IMG/VR virus record: IMGVR_UViG_3300025010_000181
Span: 1 to 31,215 of that record
Reading direction: 5' to 3' (one strand)
DNA: 31,215 bases
Source of the DNA: a virus
The notes beneath the pieces were generated by a model. That model was not told where the DNA came from. It was given only the letters and a program-made list of their open reading frames with translations, and made no database searches. Below, in pieces: positions 3,365 through 13,258 of the stretch; within the stretch, counting starts at the first letter, position 1; every line of letters begins with the position of its first letter. The translations under genes and the position numbers were made by a program.

Positions 3365-3833
3365 ATCGGTTCCTGAATGTTAAAATTTCACCTTTCAGTG
3401 GGAAATCCTCTGGCTCCGAACCAATGTAATCAGGATCGTTTTTGATCAAAGATAATGTTTGTTTATCACAAAGATTCTTAAAAAACTGTCCTGAGGTATG
3501 AATTTTAATAAATCCATAATCAACATAAACGCCAAATACCTCGCTATAAATATCCTTAGCCAAGTTATAGGCTTTATATTTTTTAGTTTTCCAGTACCCT
3601 GGCTGTGAATGGATGAATCCCCAATGGAAATCAACTTCAGTCAATAAAATCCTGTCCAAATGTATGGATGTTTTCGGCTGATCGTTCTCGGGAATCACCT
3701 CAATATTCCCGTTGTCCAGGATTTTTATGTTGACAGAATCCTTGTCGCTTAGCTTTTTTGACCTCACCCAATCCGCCGGAAGGGTCAAAGTCAAACTATA
3801 TTTGTTTGTCGAGTACAGTTTTCTTTTAATCAT
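3357..3833 (-). CDS. AbrB/SpoVT-like DNA-binding protein (158 aa)
   Basis: The N-terminus (RKLYSTNKYSLTLTLP, then ADWVRSKKLSDKDSVNI) matches the swapped-hairpin AbrB/SpoVT fold: a short strand, LPADWV, a KLSDKDSV turn, then NGNIEVIPE. The C-terminal about 100 residues are unassigned. I chose ATG 3833 because an upstream ATG would lie before the predicted transcription start. No Shine-Dalgarno is visible and +1 is predicted near 3835, so the message may be leaderless. AbrB-type proteins bind AT-rich or dyad DNA near promoters. This gene borders the divergent control region with TGCGCA and TTAAGC boxes, which are natural candidate targets. It is the first gene of the early operon and is coupled to the primase-helicase. 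Confidence 0.75.
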   Translation of the reverse strand: MIKRKLYSTNKYSLTLTLPADWVRSKKLSDKDSVNIKILDNGNIEVIPENDQPKTSIHLDRILLTEVDFHWGFIHSQPGYWKTKKYKAYNLAKDIYSEVFGVYVDYGFIKIHTSGQFFKNLCDKQTLSLIKNDPDYIGSEPEDFPLKGEILTFRNRYE

Positions 3834-3841
3834 AATTAAGT

Positions 3842-3869
3842 AGTATATAGCAATAAAAAGTTTTGTCAA
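3842..3869 (-). promoter_or_regulatory. Leftward early promoter, near-leaderless
   Basis: Minus-strand TTGACA (3869-3864), a 16-base spacer and TATACT (3847-3842). The +1 expected seven bases past the -10 is 3835, two bases before the ATG at 3833. A copy of the TGCGCA box lies 12 bases upstream of the -35 at 3882-3887. Confidence 0.8.
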
Positions 3870-4213
3870 GAAAAATAAGATTGCGCATTTAAGCAGATTT
3901 TACACAACATTAAGCATGGCATTGCGCACTTTAATTCTATATAATAAAACAAGTTACGACGAAAAAAATCAAAATGCGCAAATGCGCAATGTTTCAAAAA
4001 CGTATTTATATATGTGTGTGTGTGTGTGTGTGTGTACGTATAGTATTATTCTATTTTATTAAGCATTTTATATAATATAAGAGATAACTCTATATCCTGT
4101 ATAAAATTATGGTGCGCAATCGACTGCTTATGGGTGCTTAATTTGGCCAAATTCTGCTTAATTTCAGCTTAAATGCGCAATCTGGGCCGTTTTTTAGGCT
4201 AAAATGCGCAATA
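3870..4213. promoter_or_regulatory. Divergent control region / candidate replication origin
   Basis: This non-coding stretch separates the leftward early and rightward late genes. It holds TGCGCA at 3882, 3923, 3975, 3983, 4113, 4174 and 4205. Taken as the asymmetric box RTGCGCAAT, the first two point left and the other five mostly point right. TTAAGC occurs at 3889, 3910 and 4059, and GCTTAA at 4136, 4156 and 4167. Bases 3880-3894 (ATTGCGCATTTAAGC) and 4167-4181 are perfect reverse complements. Between them lie (TG)11 and an AT-rich segment (4041-4110). Repeated short boxes beside an AT-rich core are typical of iteron origins and of multi-site operators; sequence alone does not decide between them. 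I see no open reading frame here. Confidence 0.65.
4013..4034. repeat. (TG)11 dinucleotide repeat
   Basis: Eleven uninterrupted TG units, preceded by TATATA and followed by TACGTATA. Alternating purine-pyrimidine tracts can take the Z form under negative supercoiling and change length by slippage. Its place at the centre of the divergent control region suggests a structural role, which is inference. Confidence 0.9.
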
Positions 4214-4242
4214 TTGCTAAATTTCGGCCTTAAGGCTATAAT
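4214..4242 (+). promoter_or_regulatory. Rightward late promoter, predicted leaderless
   Basis: TTGCTA (4214-4219), a 17-base spacer and a perfect TATAAT (4237-4242). The expected +1 is 4249, the A of the small-terminase ATG. The palindrome GCCTTAAGGC (4227-4236) directly abuts the -10, and a TGCGCAAT box ends one base before the -35. Both could serve as regulator sites. Confidence 0.75.
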
Positions 4243-4248
4243 TACTCC

Positions 4249-4746
4249 ATGGCTAAACACCCTGGGGGTAGACCCACTAAGTACAATCCTAAATTCCATC
4301 CTAAAATGGGAAAGCTTGCGGCCGCAACTGGAAAAAGTGATGAGGAAATCGCTAAGGAATTGGAGATAACAACATCAACACTTTACCTGTGGAAAAACAA
4401 ATATCCAGAGTTTTCGGAGGCTATAAAGGTTGCCAAGGAAGACCCTAACGACCTTGTAGAGGCCGCACTGTTCAAAAGGGCTATTGGATACACCTTGACC
4501 CTAAAGAAGGAAATAGCGGTATCTTTGGGAGCTGGTATGGGGTCAGAACTACAGACCGCTAAAGTTCAAACCCACATTCCCCCCGATACCACCGCGCAAA
4601 TATTTTTTCTTACTCATCGTCGTCCTGAAAAATGGCCAAATAAACAAAACGTAAACCACTCCGGGGAACTCACCATCAACAACCTCACCCCAGAAGAACG
4701 TAGGGCAAGGATTAACGCGTTAAAGGCCAAAGATGGCGCTAACTGA
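4249..4746 (+). CDS. terS: Terminase small subunit (165 aa)
   Basis: Recognises the packaging site and loads the large terminase, by family knowledge. The N-terminus carries GGRPTKYNPKF and a helix-turn-helix segment near residues 24-52 (AATGKSDEEIAKELEI, then STLYLWKNKYPEF), typical of phage small terminases. The middle is helical (VEAALFKRAIGYT), and the C-terminus has PEKWPNK and a basic tail. The next gene is the large terminase, overlapping by 14 bases, which confirms the call. The start has no properly placed Shine-Dalgarno and coincides with the predicted transcription start. It is the first gene of the late operon. Confidence 0.88.
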   Translation: MAKHPGGRPTKYNPKFHPKMGKLAAATGKSDEEIAKELEITTSTLYLWKNKYPEFSEAIKVAKEDPNDLVEAALFKRAIGYTLTLKKEIAVSLGAGMGSELQTAKVQTHIPPDTTAQIFFLTHRRPEKWPNKQNVNHSGELTINNLTPEERRARINALKAKDGAN

Positions 4747-6271
4747 CGCGGAAGAAATCGAACTGCTAAACCTCCTGGAGGAAGAAGACCGGGACCATGC
4801 TAGAAATAGCCACCTGGAATTCATGAACTACACCTGGATGAAAGGCGACACAGATCCGTTTATCCCAGGATTCCACACCAAGACAATCTGCGCCCGCATC
4901 GACAAAGCTTTTCAAGATTTCCGTGAAGGAAAATCAACATACCTAAAAATCGTAGTCCATCACCGTTCCGGGAAAACTGACATTCTTTCCCGGTATCTTC
5001 CCCCTCACTTCCTGGGGGAATTCCCCGACTGTGAGGTCCTGGCGACCACGTTTAAAAGTGATCTCACTCAAAAATTCACAAGCTTTGCCCGTAACATTTT
5101 TAGGTCACAAAAGTATAGAGAACTGTACCCGGGCCTGGGGCTTTCTACCGAGTCGAATGCTAAGGCATACTGGGAGATTATCGACGAGAAAACAAAACAG
5201 CCAACACAGGGAAAGCTTTACGGATCTGGGCTATCATCAGGAATAACTGGATCTGGTGGACACTTGGTCCTTGTGGATGATCCTATATCAGGGAGAAGGG
5301 CTGCGGAATCTCTAACCGTGCGAGATGGTGTCTGGGACACGATGACAAACGACTTACTTACCAGGTTAGCTCCGGTTCATATCGTAATCATCCTGGCGAC
5401 CCAATGGCACTGGGATGACCCCCACGGGAGAATTGAAAAAGAGGCCAAGGTAGATCCTAATTTTGCAAAATTTGAAACAATGAGATTCCCGGCAAAGGCT
5501 AAGGATTACCGGGGAGAAGGTCAATATCCTGGGAAATATCTTTTCCTTGAGAGGTTTCAGGAAAGTTGGTACGAAAGCCAATATTCTTTTCTTGGCCGAT
5601 ACGGTGCCGCTGCCTTATTGGACTGCTCTCCTATGCTTCGAACTGGGTCTATATTTTCAATTGATGGGATTGTATACCACAAGCCCGAAGATATGCCAGG
5701 GGAACTGGCTATCAGGTGGGCCAGAATCTGGGACTTGGCGCACACAGCCAAACAGCGATCTAAGGATGACCCGGACTATACCTCCGGGACGCTCCTAGGC
5801 TTCCAGACTGTACCAGGTGACCCAATCCCTCACCTGTGGATCAAGAACGTGATACGAGTCCAGAAGGGCGCGGCTGAACGAGACGACGTGATACGGGAAG
5901 TAATCCATGCCGACGGGAAGTTCGTCCGCCAGGCTGTCGAGAACTCTATCGAGTCCAAGGACGCTTATGAATACATCTGCCGTGCCATGCCTGAATTCGT
6001 GATCGACAAGGTGTTAATCATGGGGAAAGGTGATAAGCTGACCAGGGCGACACCGCTAGAACCAATCTTCGAGGCCAAGGGCCACGTCCACGTCCAGGAA
6101 GGCGAGTGGAACGATGAATGGCTGGAAGAGATTATCCGCTTTGACGGCCTGGGGAAATCACACGATGACCAAGTGGACAACTTGACGGCGGGCTATATTT
6201 TTCTTGGTGGGGGCGTTATGATTACCAGTGAAAAAACAAAGGCGGCCTTAGCTGCCAGACGGAGTAGATAA
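4733..6271 (+). CDS. terL: Terminase large subunit (512 aa)
   Basis: Packaging motor with ATPase and nuclease parts. The Walker A-like loop is VHHRSGKT (about 75-82), Walker B is LVLVDD (178-183), and LATQWHWDD (about 221-229) matches the coupling motif. The C-terminal RNase H-like nuclease shows IWDLA (Asp334) and HDDQVDN (477-483), carrying the acidic residues of the terminase nuclease family. Length is normal. The ATG lies inside the last codons of the small subunit and the stop overlaps the portal start (ATAATGG), so translation is probably coupled. I am confident in the function; the packaging mode (cos or headful) is not determined. Confidence 0.95.
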   Translation: MALTDAEEIELLNLLEEEDRDHARNSHLEFMNYTWMKGDTDPFIPGFHTKTICARIDKAFQDFREGKSTYLKIVVHHRSGKTDILSRYLPPHFLGEFPDCEVLATTFKSDLTQKFTSFARNIFRSQKYRELYPGLGLSTESNAKAYWEIIDEKTKQPTQGKLYGSGLSSGITGSGGHLVLVDDPISGRRAAESLTVRDGVWDTMTNDLLTRLAPVHIVIILATQWHWDDPHGRIEKEAKVDPNFAKFETMRFPAKAKDYRGEGQYPGKYLFLERFQESWYESQYSFLGRYGAAALLDCSPMLRTGSIFSIDGIVYHKPEDMPGELAIRWARIWDLAHTAKQRSKDDPDYTSGTLLGFQTVPGDPIPHLWIKNVIRVQKGAAERDDVIREVIHADGKFVRQAVENSIESKDAYEYICRAMPEFVIDKVLIMGKGDKLTRATPLEPIFEAKGHVHVQEGEWNDEWLEEIIRFDGLGKSHDDQVDNLTAGYIFLGGGVMITSEKTKAALAARRSR

Positions 6272-7665
6272 TGGCTTCAATATTCGATTGGTTTAAGAAG
6301 AAAGAAACGCAGGACGCGGACAGTAAAAGCCGCCAAAAGGTCCAAAGGCCGATCACCCGTAACATGACCGAGGAAATGACGGTCAATGGAGACTTGACTC
6401 GCGGTCTTTACCACAACCAGTACCCGGGGCTTAAGCTGGCGGGATCGCTGGCTTTCGCTCCCATCTTCGTTCCTGTATCGCTTATGGGGTTGCCTGTGCC
6501 GATATCCAAGGATGAACGCACCCAGGAGGCATTGCGGGGCCTTGTCCAGCATTTCAGCCAGACCATGCAACAGATTCACCTTCAGGCTCACCGTGAGGGG
6601 ACTGTGTGGGTATTCCCTTTTTGGTCGGCTAAAATGGGACGGCTTTCCTGGGAGTTAATTCCGGATGATACGGTTTCCGACGTGATCAAGGATATTGACA
6701 CCGGGGAGATAATCCAGGTCATCACGACCGAACAGATCAAGATTCAGACTGGGGAAAATCTCCAGGCCAGCGTTGGGCGTGTCCGGTATTTCACCAAGGA
6801 CAGCCTGCGGGTCGTATACTCCGGGGGCATGAATGAAACCAGGGTCACTCCTAACAGGTTCAAGATCATGCCGATACCGTTCGCCAATAACGCCGACGGT
6901 GACGAGATCCGAGGTCACTCGGACTATGAACGCATTCTTTCCGACCTGAAAAACTACCATGACATCGATGTGGCATGGACTCAATTGCTGGCGAAATTCA
7001 GTGTGAAAATGATCCAAGAAGTGAGCTTGAATGTGGATACTTGGGTGGATCAGAACGGGATTGACCTGAACGCTTTCGATATTTCCACCGTGGACGTAAT
7101 TTTCAATAAGTTTAATCAGGAAAAAACCACGTTTGTCTTTCCCGAAGGAGCTCACACAGCCTATGAGAAAAAACTGAACCAGTCATTCTATAAAATCGTG
7201 GAAGGATCCGGTATACCTGAAATCGCCTGGGGGCTTAAGACCGAGGGGAACCACGCATCCGCTGAAGAGCAAATGGGCAGTCTGATTAAGTTCGTCGAAT
7301 CCAAGCGCGAACAAAAAGATGGTCCCTATGACACCCTATTCGAAAATTCCCTTACTCTCCTAGGCTCTGCCACCATGCAAACTTTCCAGCCCGTGGACTC
7401 TCTCGAGTGGGACAACATGGACGCTGTATCCGAGGACGTGAAGAGTCAGATTTTCCAGCGCTTCAGCGACGGGATGAGCAAGTTGATCGCATCCGGGTCC
7501 GTAACCCTGGAGCAAGCCCATAAACTCTGGCTGGCAATGTACCCCAGGGCGACGGAGAAAGATTTCGAGACATGGAAAATAAGCCTGAACAAAGCGGCCA
7601 AATACACTCAGTTCGCCAAGGCGTCGTTCATTGACGCTCTCCAGGCCACAGGGGCAGACGAGTGA
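6271..7665 (+). CDS. Portal protein (464 aa)
   Basis: Forms the dodecameric ring at the capsid vertex through which DNA enters and leaves, by family knowledge. The call rests on position directly after the large terminase, on size, and on a portal-like layout: an N-terminal segment with GSLAFAPIFVPV, a central mixed region (REGTVWVFPFWS, then LSWELIPDD), and the C-terminal GIPEIAWGL-EGNHASAEEQM segment followed by long helices. That last motif is common in portals of the SPP1/HK97 type. The stop overlaps the next start by four bases (GTGA). I see no membrane segment or frameshift. Confidence 0.88.
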   Translation: MASIFDWFKKKETQDADSKSRQKVQRPITRNMTEEMTVNGDLTRGLYHNQYPGLKLAGSLAFAPIFVPVSLMGLPVPISKDERTQEALRGLVQHFSQTMQQIHLQAHREGTVWVFPFWSAKMGRLSWELIPDDTVSDVIKDIDTGEIIQVITTEQIKIQTGENLQASVGRVRYFTKDSLRVVYSGGMNETRVTPNRFKIMPIPFANNADGDEIRGHSDYERILSDLKNYHDIDVAWTQLLAKFSVKMIQEVSLNVDTWVDQNGIDLNAFDISTVDVIFNKFNQEKTTFVFPEGAHTAYEKKLNQSFYKIVEGSGIPEIAWGLKTEGNHASAEEQMGSLIKFVESKREQKDGPYDTLFENSLTLLGSATMQTFQPVDSLEWDNMDAVSEDVKSQIFQRFSDGMSKLIASGSVTLEQAHKLWLAMYPRATEKDFETWKISLNKAAKYTQFAKASFIDALQATGADE

Positions 7666-8621
7666 CCAGGGAAGAGTACGTCGCCATCTACAAGGCTTCT
7701 CGTGATTCATGGCCAAGGCTCACAGCCAAGGTCATGAAGGACGTTAAAAAGGCCTATGTAACCGCGACTAAGCAGGTGACGGACGCAATCGCTAGGGCTG
7801 AGTTACGGGGCTTGTCTGAGCTAACTACCGGAAGCCTGATCGACATTCAACTCCAACTCCAGAAGGCTACCTGGGCCATAAACGACGCCATAGGAGAAGC
7901 TACCACGGACGTAGTACAGGACGGGTTAAAAGCTCAAGTGAAAGCCGATACCGGATTTCTGCTTTCCGCCGTGGGATCCGCTGAGGCCGGGGCTAAGATT
8001 ACCGCGTCCGGCGTATCGCGCATGGTGGTTAAACTGAATGATCGCATGGTGGTAGACCTGGTATCTAGAATGGGATCCGGTGGATACGCGCTGAAGACCG
8101 CCATGGGATATGAATCCACAATCAAAGACCTAATCTCCGCAGGCCTAGCCCAAGGCCTGGACCCTTCCCAGATAGCAAAACAGGTGACACGCTATGTCAG
8201 CCTGGGGAAAGACGGGATCAAGGAGGGTGTTTGGGGTGAACTGAAACCAGGTGCTAGGGATTACTACGCACGGTTACCAAAGGAAATCGACTGGCGCGCG
8301 CTCAGGATAGTCCGGACGGAGCTCACTGCATCGATGCACTCCACAGCGATCCAGCAAGCACGCATGAACCCGGGGGCCTCTGGTATGGTTGACTGGGTTA
8401 GGACCAATGATATTGACTGGGGGTGTAACTGCCCCGCGAACGCCGCCGGGAGCCCATACAAGTTGGATCAAGTGCCATCCGTGGACCATCCGAATGATAT
8501 GTGTTACCTTCGGCCTCATACGAGGAATTTTGACTCTTTCGTTGACGACCTGGCCAAATGGGCGGGCGGTGAGAGTGTGGATTATCTTGATACGTGGTAT
8601 GCTACTCAGTATCAGGGTTGA
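7662..8621 (+). CDS. MuF-like head morphogenesis protein (319 aa)
   Basis: Starts at GTG 7662, overlapping the portal stop by four bases. The N-terminal half is helical. The C-terminal part contains LRIVRTELTASMHSTAI followed by WVRTNDIDWGCNCPANA, PSVDHPNDMCYLRPH; Cys and His residues in this arrangement are typical of the MuF/gp7 minor head domain. Members are injected or help capsid assembly, and some carry toxin domains, but no extra domain is seen here. Position between portal and protease fits the family. The gene ends 32 bases before the next start, and its last codons contain the -35 region of the 8654 promoter. Confidence 0.82.
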   Translation: MTREEYVAIYKASRDSWPRLTAKVMKDVKKAYVTATKQVTDAIARAELRGLSELTTGSLIDIQLQLQKATWAINDAIGEATTDVVQDGLKAQVKADTGFLLSAVGSAEAGAKITASGVSRMVVKLNDRMVVDLVSRMGSGGYALKTAMGYESTIKDLISAGLAQGLDPSQIAKQVTRYVSLGKDGIKEGVWGELKPGARDYYARLPKEIDWRALRIVRTELTASMHSTAIQQARMNPGASGMVDWVRTNDIDWGCNCPANAAGSPYKLDQVPSVDHPNDMCYLRPHTRNFDSFVDDLAKWAGGESVDYLDTWYATQYQG

Positions 8622-8647
8622 CAACAGGGAAACCGGGGGGATAAAAT
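8618..8647 (+). promoter_or_regulatory. Internal head-operon promoter, predicted leaderless
   Basis: Perfect TTGACA (8618-8623) overlaps the MuF stop codon, followed by 18 bases and TAAAAT (8642-8647). The expected +1 is 8654, exactly the A of ATG. A G-run (8635-8640) lies in the spacer but is 13 bases from the start, too far for a good Shine-Dalgarno. Confidence 0.7.
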
Positions 8648-8653
8648 ACGATT

Positions 8654-9832
8654 ATGAAACGATATAAGGTTTTAAATTACGCTGTCGATGAGAAAATCAG
8701 AGTCCTGGGAGAAAATGAGGTGCCTACATTGATCCCCTCTGAAAAACTTCTTGTGTTGACGAACGGAGATGGTAACCCGTATTTTAAAATTCAGGCTATC
8801 AAGTATCCTATCCGTGGCTCAGGCGGAATTTACGAGGAGTCTTTCTTTCAATCTTTCGTCGATGTTACAAATTCCCGTCCTATCCCTGGGGCCAAACGTG
8901 GACACTGGAGAGCGAACCGTCCAGAATCTGATTTTTACATGATCGGCGGGAAGTTAGAACCGAACGGTGACGGGACTGGAACTGTGTATTTTAAAAACTA
9001 CATTCCCCCACTGGGTGACGGGAGCGATAACGCCCGTTTTATCCAGGACGCAAAGGCCGGAATCGTTAATTTTTCCCTTGTCTCCGCCCCTTCCTACACT
9101 GTGGACGAGAACGGAATTTATCATTTCACCGGGACTGAAGGATACGAAAGAAACGACGCTGTGGAGTTTGGAACCGGGGCCATGAAACAGCAGACGAACA
9201 GCGAGGAAGAAACTGAAATCCTAGATCTGCTGAAAAACGGAAACGTCGATAAAACCTCACCTTGGATCGAATGTGAGAATGAGGACGACGCAATTTATTA
9301 TCGTGAGAATCAAATCGGGAAATCCGGGAAAATTTACCGCTCTGCGCTCCGCTCTTTAGCGGCCCGTGGCCCGGAAACAGGAGCTACCGAACTGCTGGCC
9401 ATAATGGACAGCAAAGGAGAAAAGATGAACAAAGAAGAAATGTTGCTCAAGCTGACCAACATGAGAACCAATGGCGAACTGACCAACGTGGAACTGGCTA
9501 AGGCTTTCGGGCTGGTGCTGGAAAACGCTGAAGAGGTGACCCGCCTGAAAACTGAAAATTCGGCACTGACTGCCAAGCTGGCTCAGACCGAAACCATCAG
9601 GGTCAACGCATTCATGGATAAGGAATTCGGGACCGAGGGACTGCTTCGAGACTATGCCGGGAAACAGCTTAACAGCATGGACCCCGCCAAGGTTGAAGAG
9701 TTCAAGAAAGACCCCGTGGCTTTACAGCTCGCCGGGAACCATACTGATATCACTTTCTTCGGAAAGGTTGATAATTCGAAACAAACCCCTCCCGCTAAGA
9801 CCGTGGGTGGTGTGAAGATCGTGGAGGTTTAA
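8654..9832 (+). CDS. Prohead protease fused to scaffold (392 aa)
   Basis: The N-terminal about 160 residues look like a prohead maturation protease: RPIPGAKRGHWRANRP places a candidate catalytic His at 84, and KAGIVNFSLVSAP a candidate Ser at 141. The C-terminal third (from about 258) is a scaffold-like helical region with a coiled coil (EEVTRLKTENSALTAKL), followed by a Pro-rich tail. The protease would cut the scaffold and capsid protein during maturation. The place between MuF and capsid genes fits. Residues about 185-250 (KSGKIYRSALRSLAARG) form a linker. A strong internal ribosome site at 9412-9425 suggests the scaffold is also made alone. Confidence 0.82.
   Translation: MKRYKVLNYAVDEKIRVLGENEVPTLIPSEKLLVLTNGDGNPYFKIQAIKYPIRGSGGIYEESFFQSFVDVTNSRPIPGAKRGHWRANRPESDFYMIGGKLEPNGDGTGTVYFKNYIPPLGDGSDNARFIQDAKAGIVNFSLVSAPSYTVDENGIYHFTGTEGYERNDAVEFGTGAMKQQTNSEEETEILDLLKNGNVDKTSPWIECENEDDAIYYRENQIGKSGKIYRSALRSLAARGPETGATELLAIMDSKGEKMNKEEMLLKLTNMRTNGELTNVELAKAFGLVLENAEEVTRLKTENSALTAKLAQTETIRVNAFMDKEFGTEGLLRDYAGKQLNSMDPAKVEEFKKDPVALQLAGNHTDITFFGKVDNSKQTPPAKTVGGVKIVEV
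9425..9832 (+). CDS. Nested scaffold protein from an internal in-frame start (135 aa)
   Basis: Within the protease gene an ATG at 9425 (MNKEEMLLKLTNMRTN) is preceded by AAAGGAG at five-base spacing, one of the best Shine-Dalgarno sites in the window, and is in the same frame. The product would be the coiled-coil scaffold domain without the protease, like Nu3 within lambda C. The full-length start at 8654 lacks such a site, so the short form could be the abundant one. This is inference from the ribosome site and domain boundary. Confidence 0.6.
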   Translation: MNKEEMLLKLTNMRTNGELTNVELAKAFGLVLENAEEVTRLKTENSALTAKLAQTETIRVNAFMDKEFGTEGLLRDYAGKQLNSMDPAKVEEFKKDPVALQLAGNHTDITFFGKVDNSKQTPPAKTVGGVKIVEV

Positions 9833-9835
9833 GCC

Positions 9836-10528
9836 ATGGGATCTACTGTTTACATTCAAAAGGAAAGTGCTGACCACGTCAGTCTGACCAACAACACCGG
9901 CGTGGCGCTGGTGCAATACGAGTTCACCGTCATCGGTGGGATTCCTTGCATAGCTGACGAGGCTATCGGGATCGGTGCCGTGGGATCTTTCCATGTCTCC
10001 GATGTGGTATTCGAGGCTGCTGACTTTAACGTCGGTGGTGACACCTTTGCCACTGTGGACGCTCCTGTATATTGGGATCCTTCCGCCAAGAAGTTCTCCG
10101 ATATCGCCTCCGCCGCTTTCTACCAAGTAGGTATCGTCAAGGAAATCAAGAATTCCGCTGGCATGGTTTTGGTCCTGAAGAACAACGCCACTGCACTGAA
10201 TTCTGAGTCCGGTGGTAACACTGTCCAGTTGACCTACAAGGTGACTGCCGATGCAACCGCTGGTCTGGCCATCACCGTACCTTACCCCATGGAGATCCTG
10301 GACGTAATTGTCCAGTGCCAGGCCGCTAACGCCGGGGGAACTCTCCAGCTTAAGAACGGTGCGACCGCTATCAATGACGCTCAAGTTTGCGCCGTTGACA
10401 AGGTAATCACTCGGGCCGGGACCATCGACGATGCCGTGTCCAGTCTCACCACTGCTACAGTTCTCAAGGTGTTCTCCAATGGAGCCGCCGACCGGGGATT
10501 GATCACCATAATCGGAAGAAGGGTTTAA
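9836..10528 (+). CDS. Capsid decoration/cement protein (DUF2190-like, 230 aa)
   Basis: The first about 110 residues (ESADHVSLTNNTG, then VDAPVYWDPSAKKFS and VGIVKEIKNSAG) match the small beta-rich DUF2190 type found beside major capsid genes and thought to stabilise the shell. A second domain of about 105 residues (VQLTYKVTADATAG to the end) is added, so the protein is about twice the usual length. GGAGG lies eight bases before the ATG. It stands four bases after the protease/scaffold gene and immediately before the capsid gene. The extra domain could be an exposed lobe. Confidence 0.75.
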   Translation: MGSTVYIQKESADHVSLTNNTGVALVQYEFTVIGGIPCIADEAIGIGAVGSFHVSDVVFEAADFNVGGDTFATVDAPVYWDPSAKKFSDIASAAFYQVGIVKEIKNSAGMVLVLKNNATALNSESGGNTVQLTYKVTADATAGLAITVPYPMEILDVIVQCQAANAGGTLQLKNGATAINDAQVCAVDKVITRAGTIDDAVSSLTTATVLKVFSNGAADRGLITIIGRRV

Positions 10529-10531
10529 ACT

Positions 10532-11698
10532 ATGCTTAAGATTTACAACACCGAAAACTTGATCGCTGAGCGGAAAGCTCGGATCAAAACCGTGTCGGCT
10601 CCTCTTTTCGCCGGGACGATGTTTGCCAACAAACAAGACCAGTCCGGCCCTGTCCAGGTCTACAACAGCGCCAAACAAGCGTCTGAAATTGTGACCGAGA
10701 TGGAAGAGATCCGGCATTCCGTGGTTTCCAACGCCGCTCAGGCTCCCAGTTCCGCCGTGGTGGATGCTTTCTTCGGGAAGTTCTTCATCGACGTGACCCG
10801 CCGGGCTATGGAAGCTCCTGACGTGACCAGTTTGATCGCTCAAGAAGCGACTAACTTCGAATTCCCTGAGACTGTGAACCTCAGGGACCTGATTCCTTTC
10901 CGTGGGAAAATGGGCGTTGTGTCCGGAGCTAACGACGGGGTCAACCTGATCGAACAGAACACCGGGAACGTCGAGACTGTGACCATGGGGATCAAAGCTG
11001 TCGGCTGGAAAGACTCCATCAAGAATCTGTTGTTTAACAAGTTCTTCACCATGGATAAAGTGGTCCAAGCCGCTGTGGATGCTGATACCGACGCTCGGAA
11101 CGCCGCTACCGTGGGGCTGATCGTGGCCGCCACTTATGTGGCCAGTCAACAGCAAGCCGCCATCGCTACCGCTGGTTTAACCTACGATGAGAAGATGTAC
11201 GAAACACTTCTCGCCGCATGGAAGAAGTTGGTAGCCTTGAAGGACCCCAAGACAAGCCGGAAGATCGCCGCTCCCCGCGTGGCCATCCTGTGTAACTCTG
11301 CGGATTCCTGGTCCATCCAGAACGTTATGGCTGGACAGCTTAACGGTAACGGATCCAGTGCCAGAACCAACAACCGCCCCGGATTGCCTATCGGTACTTT
11401 AATTGAATACGACCATGGCATCAACGATGGATTCACTATTGGTAAAGAGATCGTTTCTTTCCCTGGCGTTACCGCTGGCAAGGCCTACATTTTTGTCCCT
11501 GGCGTCATGATCGTGGCTAATAAAAGGCCTTTGACCATGGAGACGGGCCGAGGGTCCGTTCTTGAGTTATCCACCGAGGAAAGAGCCTGGTATCGTATCC
11601 AGGGCGAATACTCCAAAGATTTCTTGGGATCTAGCTACCCTGGGACTGCTTTGGGTGCATCGTTTGGGTATATCATAGAGGTGACCCTCCCAACTTAA
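10532..11698 (+). CDS. Major capsid protein (388 aa)
   Basis: Called by position after decoration and scaffold genes and before a terminator, by length, and by a HK97-like layout: a helical N-terminal part up to about residue 105, then NFEFPETVNLRDLIPFRGK, a central mixed region, and a C-terminal beta-rich part (GRGSVLELSTEERAWYRIQGEYSKDF). AGAAGG lies about nine bases before the ATG. Codon use is biased to GCC, ACC and GGA, as expected for a highly expressed gene. The cleavage site of the maturation protease, if any, cannot be placed. Confidence 0.85.
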   Translation: MLKIYNTENLIAERKARIKTVSAPLFAGTMFANKQDQSGPVQVYNSAKQASEIVTEMEEIRHSVVSNAAQAPSSAVVDAFFGKFFIDVTRRAMEAPDVTSLIAQEATNFEFPETVNLRDLIPFRGKMGVVSGANDGVNLIEQNTGNVETVTMGIKAVGWKDSIKNLLFNKFFTMDKVVQAAVDADTDARNAATVGLIVAATYVASQQQAAIATAGLTYDEKMYETLLAAWKKLVALKDPKTSRKIAAPRVAILCNSADSWSIQNVMAGQLNGNGSSARTNNRPGLPIGTLIEYDHGINDGFTIGKEIVSFPGVTAGKAYIFVPGVMIVANKRPLTMETGRGSVLELSTEERAWYRIQGEYSKDFLGSSYPGTALGASFGYIIEVTLPT

Positions 11699-11716
11699 TA
11701 TTTAGTTTAGACGCTT

Positions 11717-11748
11717 TGAAAGCTCCCAGAAATGGGAGCTTTTTTTAT
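11717..11748 (+). terminator. Intrinsic terminator after the capsid gene
   Basis: AGCTCCC (11721-11727), loop AGAAAT, GGGAGCT (11734-11740), then six T. The stem is 7 bp and perfect. It lies 23 bases past the capsid stop and closes the head operon. Confidence 0.93.
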
Positions 11749-11762
11749 TCCATAGCGAAAAA

Positions 11763-11791
11763 GTGCTATAAGTCGACCGTTTTGTGCTATA
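11763..11791. repeat. GTGCTATA direct repeat, 21-bp period
   Basis: GTGCTATA occurs at 11763-11770 and 11784-11791, two helical turns apart, the second copy overlapping the -35 of the next promoter. The arrangement suits a regulator binding one face of the DNA. Confidence 0.55.
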
Positions 11792-11818
11792 GACAAAGGT
11801 TTATATATGGTTTATATT
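11790..11818 (+). promoter_or_regulatory. Promoter after the head operon, predicted leaderless
   Basis: TAGACA (11790-11795), a 17-base spacer, TATATT (11813-11818). The expected +1 is 11825, the A of an ATG. The spacer and -10 contain GGTTTATA-TAT-GGTTTATA, the doubled box also seen at the minus-strand promoters at 446 and 30070. It probably drives the small genes, tRNA and structured RNA that follow. Confidence 0.78.
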
Positions 11819-11824
11819 TAAATC

Positions 11825-12019
11825 ATGGAAGGGCGGAAAGCCCTAAGGAGATCCAAGATGAAAGGTTTTTTTGAAGTATTTGCTGATGATGGACAAAGCC
11901 AGGTTTTCACAGCTGAAGAACTTGGCCTTGATCCTGAGTTCGATTACAATTTCGATCAGGTTGTAGAAGCTCTTGAGAAGATTGGATACAGTCGGTCTGG
12001 AGTTGTAAGTATCGAATAA
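11825..12019 (+). CDS. Small acidic protein with two possible starts (64 or 53 aa)
   Basis: The frame opens at ATG 11825, where transcription is predicted to begin. A second ATG at 11858 (MKGFFEVFADDG) has AAGGAG seven bases upstream. The short form is a compact acidic protein (EELGLDPEFDYNFDQVVEALEKIGYS). The long form adds a basic 11-residue head (MEGRKALRRSK). If the message is leaderless both could be made. Between the starts lies the hairpin AGGGC-GGAAA-GCCCT just before the ribosome site. No family is recognised. I regard 11858 as the main start and list the longer frame. Confidence 0.6.
   Translation: MEGRKALRRSKMKGFFEVFADDGQSQVFTAEELGLDPEFDYNFDQVVEALEKIGYSRSGVVSIE
11833..11847 (+). 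promoter_or_regulatory. Leader hairpin (GGCGGAAAGCC) before ribosome site
   Basis: AGGGC-GGAAA-GCCCT forms a 5-bp stem with a GGAAA loop immediately before AAGGAG. Nearly the same string (GGCGGAAAGCC, then AGAAGGAGA) recurs at 12071-12088 before the next gene. Confidence 0.5.
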
Positions 12020-12094
12020 CCCGCCCTGACGATGCCCTGGATGGCCCCAGGGCGAAACCGGAAACGGTCGGCGGAAAGCCAGAAGGAGACGATC

Positions 12095-12262
12095 ATGACC
12101 AGACACGAACAACTGACAAAGAAAATTGCCTTACTACGTGATACCGCCATGAAGTGCGCTGATTACGGCAGTTCTTTCTACGAGGTATGGTTCAGGAAAT
12201 TCCATGAATTGCGTGATCTTAGGGATGGACTTAGCTTGGAGGAAGCTGGTAGAATTGTTTAG
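12095..12262 (+). CDS. Small helical protein, unknown function (55 aa)
   Basis: ATG 12095 (MTRHEQLTKKIALLRD) has AAGGAG six bases upstream. An earlier ATG at 12032 in frame has no such support. The product is basic at the N-terminus and mainly helical (KFHELRDLRDGLSLEEAGRIV), with no membrane segment. Its leader repeats the GGCGGAAAGCC element of the previous gene, suggesting shared control. It ends seven bases before the tRNA gene, so gene and tRNA are probably co-transcribed. Confidence 0.65.
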   Translation: MTRHEQLTKKIALLRDTAMKCADYGSSFYEVWFRKFHELRDLRDGLSLEEAGRIV

Positions 12263-12268
12263 TGGAGT

Positions 12269-12340
12269 GCCGGTATAGCTCAGCGGTAGAGCAACGGTTT
12301 TGTAAACCGTAGGTCGTCAGTTCAATCCTGACATCCGGCT
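12269..12340 (+). tRNA. tRNA-Thr (anticodon UGU)
   Basis: Cloverleaf by eye: D-stem GCTC/GAGC with an AGCGGTA loop; anticodon stem ACGGT/ACCGT with loop TTTGTAA (TGT); variable AGGTC; T-stem GTCAG/CTGAC with loop TTCAATC; discriminator T; no encoded CCA. The acceptor pairs only at positions 1-5 (GCCGG/CCGGC): positions 6-67 are U-U and 7-66 are A-A. It would read ACA codons. Phage tRNAs usually support late translation; the two mismatches may mean decay or a tolerated variant. Confidence 0.88.
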
Positions 12341-12577
12341 TAGCCTCGTATGAGGTGACATACATTGTTTCAAAGGACTCCTAAGGGAGACTCCTCAAGG
12401 TACTGGGTGTCAGGTCCCCTCCTAAGTTTCTGACATCCAACAAGCGAGACTCCCCGGGTGACTCCGGGGAACACTGGGATCGTGGCTGATTGGGAACAAA
12501 GCTAAGTTACGATAGGGAGATGAATGGCAGTAACGCCAATATTCAAATCCTTTCAGGTTCGAGTCCTGACGATTCCA
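12341..12577 (+). ncRNA. Structured RNA stretch ending in a tRNA-like fold
   Basis: No reading frame fills this stretch. It shows a 9-bp stem GGGTGTCAG/CTGACATCC (about 12404-12440), a 7-bp stem TCCCCGG/CCGGGGA (about 12451-12470), and GACTCC four times. Bases 12476-12577 look like a tRNA: acceptor GGGATCG/CGATTCC (7 bp, one G-U), a D-arm with GG, and T-arm TCAGG-TTCGAGT-CCTGA. The part between D- and T-arms is 49 bases. Its only good stem is GTTAC/GTAAC with a 19-base loop, so no anticodon can be assigned. It may be a degenerate tRNA, a tRNA with a small insertion, or a distinct tRNA-like RNA. Confidence 0.5.
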
Positions 12578-12593
12578 TTTAAAGGAGTTTTTT

Positions 12594-12767
12594 ATGAAAG
12601 TTGATTTTATTTTCGAAATCGATCAATTGGTAAAAGTAACTGCTACCGAGGAAATTGGAGTTGTTACAACCGCTTGTTTGGACGACGGCGGTAAGAGGTA
12701 TTATGTCCAAGGGAAAGGGGAAGGGAAGTGGTGGGCTGAACGTTTGTTAGTTCCTGCTTCTGACTAG
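12594..12767 (+). CDS. Small SH3-like protein, unknown function (57 aa)
   Basis: ATG 12594 has AAAGGAG upstream at 12581-12587. The translation (MKVDFIFEIDQLVKV, then TEEIGVVTTACLDDGGKRY and GKWWAERLLVPASD) has the look of small beta-barrel phage proteins: a 'DQLVKV...GVV' opening, a turn, then a Trp-rich strand before the end. It directly follows the tRNA-like element, and its stop codon lies in the -35 box of the next promoter (12765-12767). Function is unknown; such folds often bind nucleic acids or proteins. Confidence 0.65.
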   Translation: MKVDFIFEIDQLVKVTATEEIGVVTTACLDDGGKRYYVQGKGEGKWWAERLLVPASD

Positions 12768-12793
12768 ACAATCCACGCCATGGGGGCTAAACT
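12765..12793 (+). promoter_or_regulatory. Connector/tail operon promoter, predicted leaderless
   Basis: TAGACA (12765-12770), a 17-base spacer, TAAACT (12788-12793; four of six matches). The expected +1 is 12800, the A of the ATG. The -10 lies in the loop of a 9-bp inverted repeat (12777-12804). Confidence 0.6.
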
Positions 12794-12804
12794 ATCCCCA
12801 TGGC
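12777..12804 (+). promoter_or_regulatory. 9-bp perfect dyad over the -10 and start codon
   Basis: GCCATGGGG (12777-12785) and CCCCATGGC (12796-12804) are perfect reverse complements around a 10-base loop. In RNA coming from upstream the start codon at 12800 would be paired. As DNA it is a plausible operator. Confidence 0.6.
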
Positions 12805-13258
12805 AACCTTCGAACAAATTAAGGCCTTGCGCCTCACAGTTGACGACCCTGCGGGATTCCTGAACCTTCTGGAATCCGTAACCTATCCGGCCACTCCAGC
12901 CCATAGGACCGCTTACCTTATCGCAGGGCGCTATGTTTACACCACAAAGACTACTGGGGCCGTCGAGGCTGACTACACGGTAGCAGAATACCGCCTTTCC
13001 GATGCCAGGATTACCGAGTGGATCGACTCCGGCGCTGACGCTGTCCAGTCCGCTTACCGTGCCATCCTGACGAAGTTGGGAAACGAGATGACTGTGGTCC
13101 GAAACCAGGCCGGGGCTGAATCTACGCAGTTCACCGCCCTGAAAGACCTTTATGATTACTACCGTGGTCTTATCGCGGATGAATCTGCCGTTTCCGGGTC
13201 TTCCGCTGGAAAGTGGGCTAGGTCTACGGCTCCCGAAGTGGCCGGGGGGAACGTGTGA
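12800..13258 (+). CDS. Head-tail connector protein (152 aa)
   Basis: A small mainly helical protein with an Ala-rich body (ARITEWIDSGADAVQSAYRAILTKLG, in part), in the usual place of the first head-tail connector (gp6/gp15-like adaptor) after the capsid gene. The N-terminus (FEQIKALRLTVDDPAGFLNLL) resembles the starting helix of that family, but I assign it mainly from position. The ATG has no usable Shine-Dalgarno and matches the predicted transcription start. The stop overlaps the next start by four bases (GTGA). The C-terminus is Gly/Ser-rich and probably flexible. Confidence 0.65.
   Translation: MATFEQIKALRLTVDDPAGFLNLLESVTYPATPAHRTAYLIAGRYVYTTKTTGAVEADYTVAEYRLSDARITEWIDSGADAVQSAYRAILTKLGNEMTVVRNQAGAESTQFTALKDLYDYYRGLIADESAVSGSSAGKWARSTAPEVAGGNV

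Follow-up and report, generated by a model that had tools for sequence, protein, structure and literature searches.

Promoters spaced for predicted leaderless mRNAs at the heads of structural units in an uncultivated phage lineage

Leaderless translation initiation was first found in bacteriophage lambda (PMC3160421), its cI mRNA being named in PMC9031893, and in Thermus phage phiYS40 the middle and late mRNAs are mostly leaderless (PMC3594737). In the Cluster O mycobacteriophage Corndog, the promoters PL1, PR2 and PL2 are SigA-like and their +1 position is predicted to coincide with the start codon's first base (PMC4351075). Leaderless genes of bacteria carry a TA-like signal about 12 bp upstream (PMC3160421). 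Here we describe the whole IMG/VR virus record IMGVR_UViG_3300025010_000181 (31,215 bases, possibly a genome fragment; hereafter, the window), in which several phage genes show a -10-to-ATG spacing identical to that of leaderless genes of Actinobacteria, Deinococcus-Thermus, Chloroflexi and others, although those examples are cellular genes (PMC3160421, PMC12340547). A -10 motif can be a promoter by itself in Deinococcus, where adding a -35 enhances it; the arrangements counted here all include a -35 box.

As for lambda cI, leaderless mRNAs are predicted here for a phage, but cI is a single regulatory gene and the present cases stand at the heads of structural units. As in phiYS40, several structural genes have predicted leaderless promoters (in the window, those of the terminase small subunit, the protease-position protein and the connector; in relatives, portal, tape-measure and tail genes). 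Unlike phiYS40, for which a shift of IF2 and IF3 levels has been reported, the lineage mixes leaderless and Shine-Dalgarno (SD)-leadered genes under one promoter class. Corndog is an actinobacterial phage with three such promoters, while here many structural-unit heads are involved and the arrangement is conserved across diverged phages. A preliminary description of the window had called such starts unusual for a phage, which is not supported in view of the mRNAs of phiYS40 (PMC3594737) and those predicted in Corndog (PMC4351075). Leaderless phage mRNAs are thus already known, and what appears to be new is a spacing conserved across a diverged uncultivated lineage, with orthologous starts differing in their predicted mode.

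The gene for the terminase small subunit (TerS; positions 4249–4746, plus strand), which matches PHROG family phrog_309 (E = 6e-46) and heads the structural block, is preceded by the promoter TTGCTA-17-TATAAT (boxes at 4214–4242; 4214–4251 including the ATG). Between the MuF and decoration genes lies a plus-strand gene at 8654–9832, with orthologues in L007, L008 and L009 and no match among PHROG families; its promoter, TTGACA-18-TAAAAT (boxes at 8618–8647; 8618–8656 with the ATG), has a -35 box overlapping the stop codon of the MuF-like gene. The gene at 12800–13258 (plus strand; 152 aa, MATFEQIK...), whose start is backed by orthologues and whose product has no relative in PDB or PHROG, follows TAGACA-17-TAAACT (12765–12802 with the ATG). 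The names "protease" or "scaffold" for the 8654 gene and "connector" for the 12800 gene are guesses from gene position. A fourth plus-strand promoter, TAGACA-17-TATATT (11790–11827 with the ATG), is located after an intrinsic terminator (11718–11743) and ahead of ATG 11825. At all four sites, exactly six bases separate the -10 box from the ATG (gap 6), and each of these ATGs is the most upstream start possible in its own reading frame. A divergent minus-strand promoter, TTGACA-16-TATACT (3833–3869), stands at gap 8 from ATG 3833 of an AbrB/MazE-domain gene (Pfam score slightly under the curated cut-off); a transcript leader of 0–3 nt is predicted for this borderline case. Because -35/-10 pairs with 16–18-base spacers are present, we rejected the idea that the spacing derives from archaeal TATA boxes.

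The hexamers, spacers and gaps given for these five sites in the preliminary description, including the two-base offset at 3833, were all found in place. None of the five starts has an SD at 4–12 nt before it, whereas about half of the other window starts possess one. Many of the other starts lacking an SD overlap the preceding gene.

Chance look-alikes in AT-rich upstream sequence could be suspected, since a generic promoter scan of the region returned many promoter-like sites (19 versus 10 expected) and -35 boxes in the window are imperfect, that of the 4249 promoter being weak (4/6). The significance therefore rests on the spacing to the ATG and not on the hexamers alone. Among 41 curated starts, a -35/-10 pair was found at gap 6 before three (4249, 8654 and 12800), at gaps 0–5 or 7 before none, and at gaps 8 and 22 before one each; 11825 was not included, as its frame contains another start that is led by an SD. 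After first-order (dinucleotide) shuffling, these upstream sequences had on average 0.024 starts at gap 6, and 0 of 3000 trials reached three. The shuffles, together with the gap profiles, control phages and orthologue conservation considered below, all oppose chance resemblance, which is extremely improbable; it is refuted for the set and possible for single sites such as 11825.

The 11825 site belongs to a plus-strand gene of 53–64 aa (11825/11858–12019), the first in a block with tRNA-Thr (12269–12340), and here the claim of a firm leaderless start made earlier could not be upheld. The in-frame ATG 11858 (53-aa frame, 11858–12019) has a good SD, AAGGAG, 7 nt upstream and is the likely start; the adjacent gene at 12095 is likewise preceded by GGCGGAAAGCC-AAGGAG. 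Two features argue for the leaderless alternative: the gap to ATG 11825 is exactly 6, like that of the other sites, and the frame is open from that codon. We consider it probable that the mRNA from this promoter is not leaderless but has 33 nt ahead of ATG 11858, with a small hairpin and the SD of that start. The GGCGGAAAGCC stem-loop occurs just ahead of AAGGAG and an ATG in two adjacent small genes (11832–11860 and 12070–12097). Further downstream, positions 12476–12577 (102 nt) resemble a second tRNA gene (Rfam tRNA model, 30.7 bits) that was not found by ARAGORN. GTTAC and GTAAC may pair there as an anticodon stem enclosing a loop of 19 nt, and the element could be either a decayed tRNA or one that contains an insert.

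About 65 related viral loci were gathered using capsid and terminase profiles. In the near lineage, comprising the window and the long contigs G001–G004 read whole (five contigs, 213 kb), 17 or 23 promoters, depending on the threshold, stood at gap 6 from the ATG of a gene; the mean for other gaps was 1.2 or 1.6. The Poisson probability of this excess across the five contigs is about 1e-14 to 1e-19 when promoters are treated as independent, and such values overstate the surprise because the contigs share ancestry; the orthologue and operator comparisons described below do not depend on them. No gap-6 peak was seen in five control phages (lambda, phiAO1, Aaphi23, Dp-1 and vir515), nor in high-GC SD-type relatives or other low-GC relatives. 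When the profile is taken over all loci rather than the near lineage, only a weak peak is found, since most distant relatives use SDs. The start codons at gap 6 comprise 23 ATG, one GTG and no TTG, while the SD-led starts of the same contigs number 64, 15 and 13, respectively; a near-exclusive use of ATG is expected if the AUG itself is the signal for the ribosome.

The start sites of sigma-70 promoters wobble, and transcripts could begin slightly upstream of the ATG, with leaders of 1–5 nt, instead of strictly at the A. Some members of the set do stand at gap 5 or 8, and a start 1–3 nt upstream of the ATG would look identical in sequence; on the other hand, the near lineage shows a sharp peak at gap 6 and none at gap 7, and we regard such short leaders as somewhat unlikely. 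In a sub-group consisting of G004, G006, G007, L028 and L107, the gap is 5 rather than 6, and the host polymerase of these phages may have a different start preference.

The preliminary description had proposed loss of the -10/ATG spacing in related phages as the observation that would speak against its leaderless reading; the comparison was made, the spacing proved to be retained, and that reading is strongly supported. Orthologues of the TerS, portal, protease-position, connector, tape-measure and tail genes have -35/-10 promoters, mostly at gap 5–6, and the sequence between the -10 box and the ATG varies among them while the gap is kept. For TerS the gap is 6 in all three near relatives (for example, TAAAAT AGCATT ATG in L005 and TATAAT TAGGGC ATG in L026), the tape-measure gene has gap 6 in G001, G002 and G003, and the portal gene has gaps of 5–8 in G001, G002, G003, G006 and L028. 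The orthologue of the 8654 gene in G007/L040 (position 15868) is preceded by TAGACA-17-TATCAT-5-ATG.

The start of the connector gene is certain because the first residues align across the family. Promoters at gap 5–6 were found before its orthologues in G001, G002, G003, G004, G007, L094, L100 and L107, with gap sequences such as ATCCCC, AATTTC, AACCAC, AAAAGT, AAGAAT and others, the length being held. Classification of 22 distinct orthologues plus that of G007 gave nine starts that lack an SD and stand at gap 5 or 6 from a promoter, 12 with an SD and no promoter there, two with neither and none with both; three of the nine promoter-type starts (L094, L100 and L107) were found in scans after the pattern had been stated. 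SD and promoter are mutually exclusive at orthologous starts. Control starts, those of the capsid and decoration genes, mostly have SDs. On the connector gene tree the two modes are somewhat clustered (four changes versus seven when shuffled); because support in this tree is weak, we claim no number of mode switches.

These data also bear on the possibility that the promoters are real but translation proceeds mostly from longer read-through mRNAs, with internal leaderless mRNAs acting as minor boosters. Genes of the window are densely packed on one strand, no convincing intrinsic terminator was detected just before 8654 or 12800, and read-through from upstream genes could provide a leadered mRNA for both. 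However, such an mRNA would have no initiation signal at these starts, which have neither an SD nor an overlap with the upstream gene, and the exact spacing is conserved, with the SD missing precisely where the promoter is present. A predominantly read-through origin of translation is thus unlikely.

Contigs G001–G003 (L072–L080) have in common a promoter-operator element, TTGACA(Y)NNtCCGCA..gATAAT, often in back-to-back promoters. It occurs in 7, 8 and 12 copies in G001, G002 and G003, respectively, versus 0.3–0.5 expected, and probably marks a phage regulon. This allowed 27 promoters to be picked by operator sequence, ignoring gene starts. Ten of them had an ATG at a gap of exactly 6 and one at gap 7, all 11 without an SD; for 14, the first start was at a gap of about 12–44, and 12 of these 14 had an SD (the SD-led ones at 17–44); two had no clear gene. 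The gene for a 1064–1101-aa protein is of the leaderless type in G002 and SD-led in G001 and G003, with the same promoter type. The operator-defined set provides the cleanest evidence that predicted leaderless and leadered starts are discrete alternatives.

At the starts assigned to the leaderless type, a -10 box ending 5–7 nt before the start, no SD and, almost always, an AUG start codon were found together, and the promoters at gap 6 very probably give rise to leaderless mRNAs that begin on the A of the AUG and are made by a host polymerase of the sigma-70 type. The host sigma-70 holoenzyme would bind the -35 and -10 boxes, and RNA polymerase would begin transcription 7 nt past the -10 box, at the A of the ATG that opens the first gene. 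The resulting mRNA would have no 5' leader and no SD, and its 5'-terminal AUG would recruit the ribosome, as it does in other leaderless mRNAs of bacteria. Genes further along the unit would be translated via their own SDs or start/stop overlaps. The RNA 5' ends, the recognition by host RNA polymerase and 70S-type initiation are deduced from the spacing combined with established knowledge of leaderless mRNAs (PMC3160421, PMC9031893). The gene content suggests late timing of these transcripts; the timing device considered in the preliminary description finds no support.

More tentatively, one could hypothesise that, where structural units begin and under a single promoter class that carries an operator, the lineage uses leaderless initiation as a regular and evolvable alternative to SDs. 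Genes such as that of the 1064–1101-aa protein may then switch mode between close relatives, possibly tuning expression as ribosomes or initiation factors change in the course of infection. The lineage offers a natural set of variants in which the predicted mode of the same gene, sometimes with the same promoter type, differs from phage to phage between leaderless and SD-led. With this set, the cost and benefit of leaderless initiation could be tested directly. For this unannotated group of phages, the arrangement further settles where genes start.

A further prediction, that the host translates leaderless mRNAs well, could help the search for it; capsid and terminase profiles revealed no relative in 84,980 species genomes. 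The search for close annotated phages found none: relatives of the terminase and portal appeared only at about 22–28% identity, and the capsid and the 1088-aa gene had no relative. Pfam searches assigned no function to the relatives' leaderless genes.

The divergent intergenic region between the 3833 and 4249 starts (3834–4248, 415 bp) contains TGCTTAA repeats and all seven TGCGCA sites of the window, about five being expected over its whole 31 kb. Located beside a primase/helicase-like gene, these sites are probable operators or origin iterons. In the MuF-like head protein of L004 (1597–3435) and L008 (2979–4853), an in-frame insert of about 300 aa is present at the same site, while the window copy has none. 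In both loci the insert begins at a Cys and ends with ...FASHN before a Cys, and it looks like an intein at a conserved His/Cys site. At its two ends (1–1778 and 46516–48293), contig G001 seems to have the same sequence of about 1.8 kb, which suggests that the genome is circular or permuted, with a size of about 46.5 kb.
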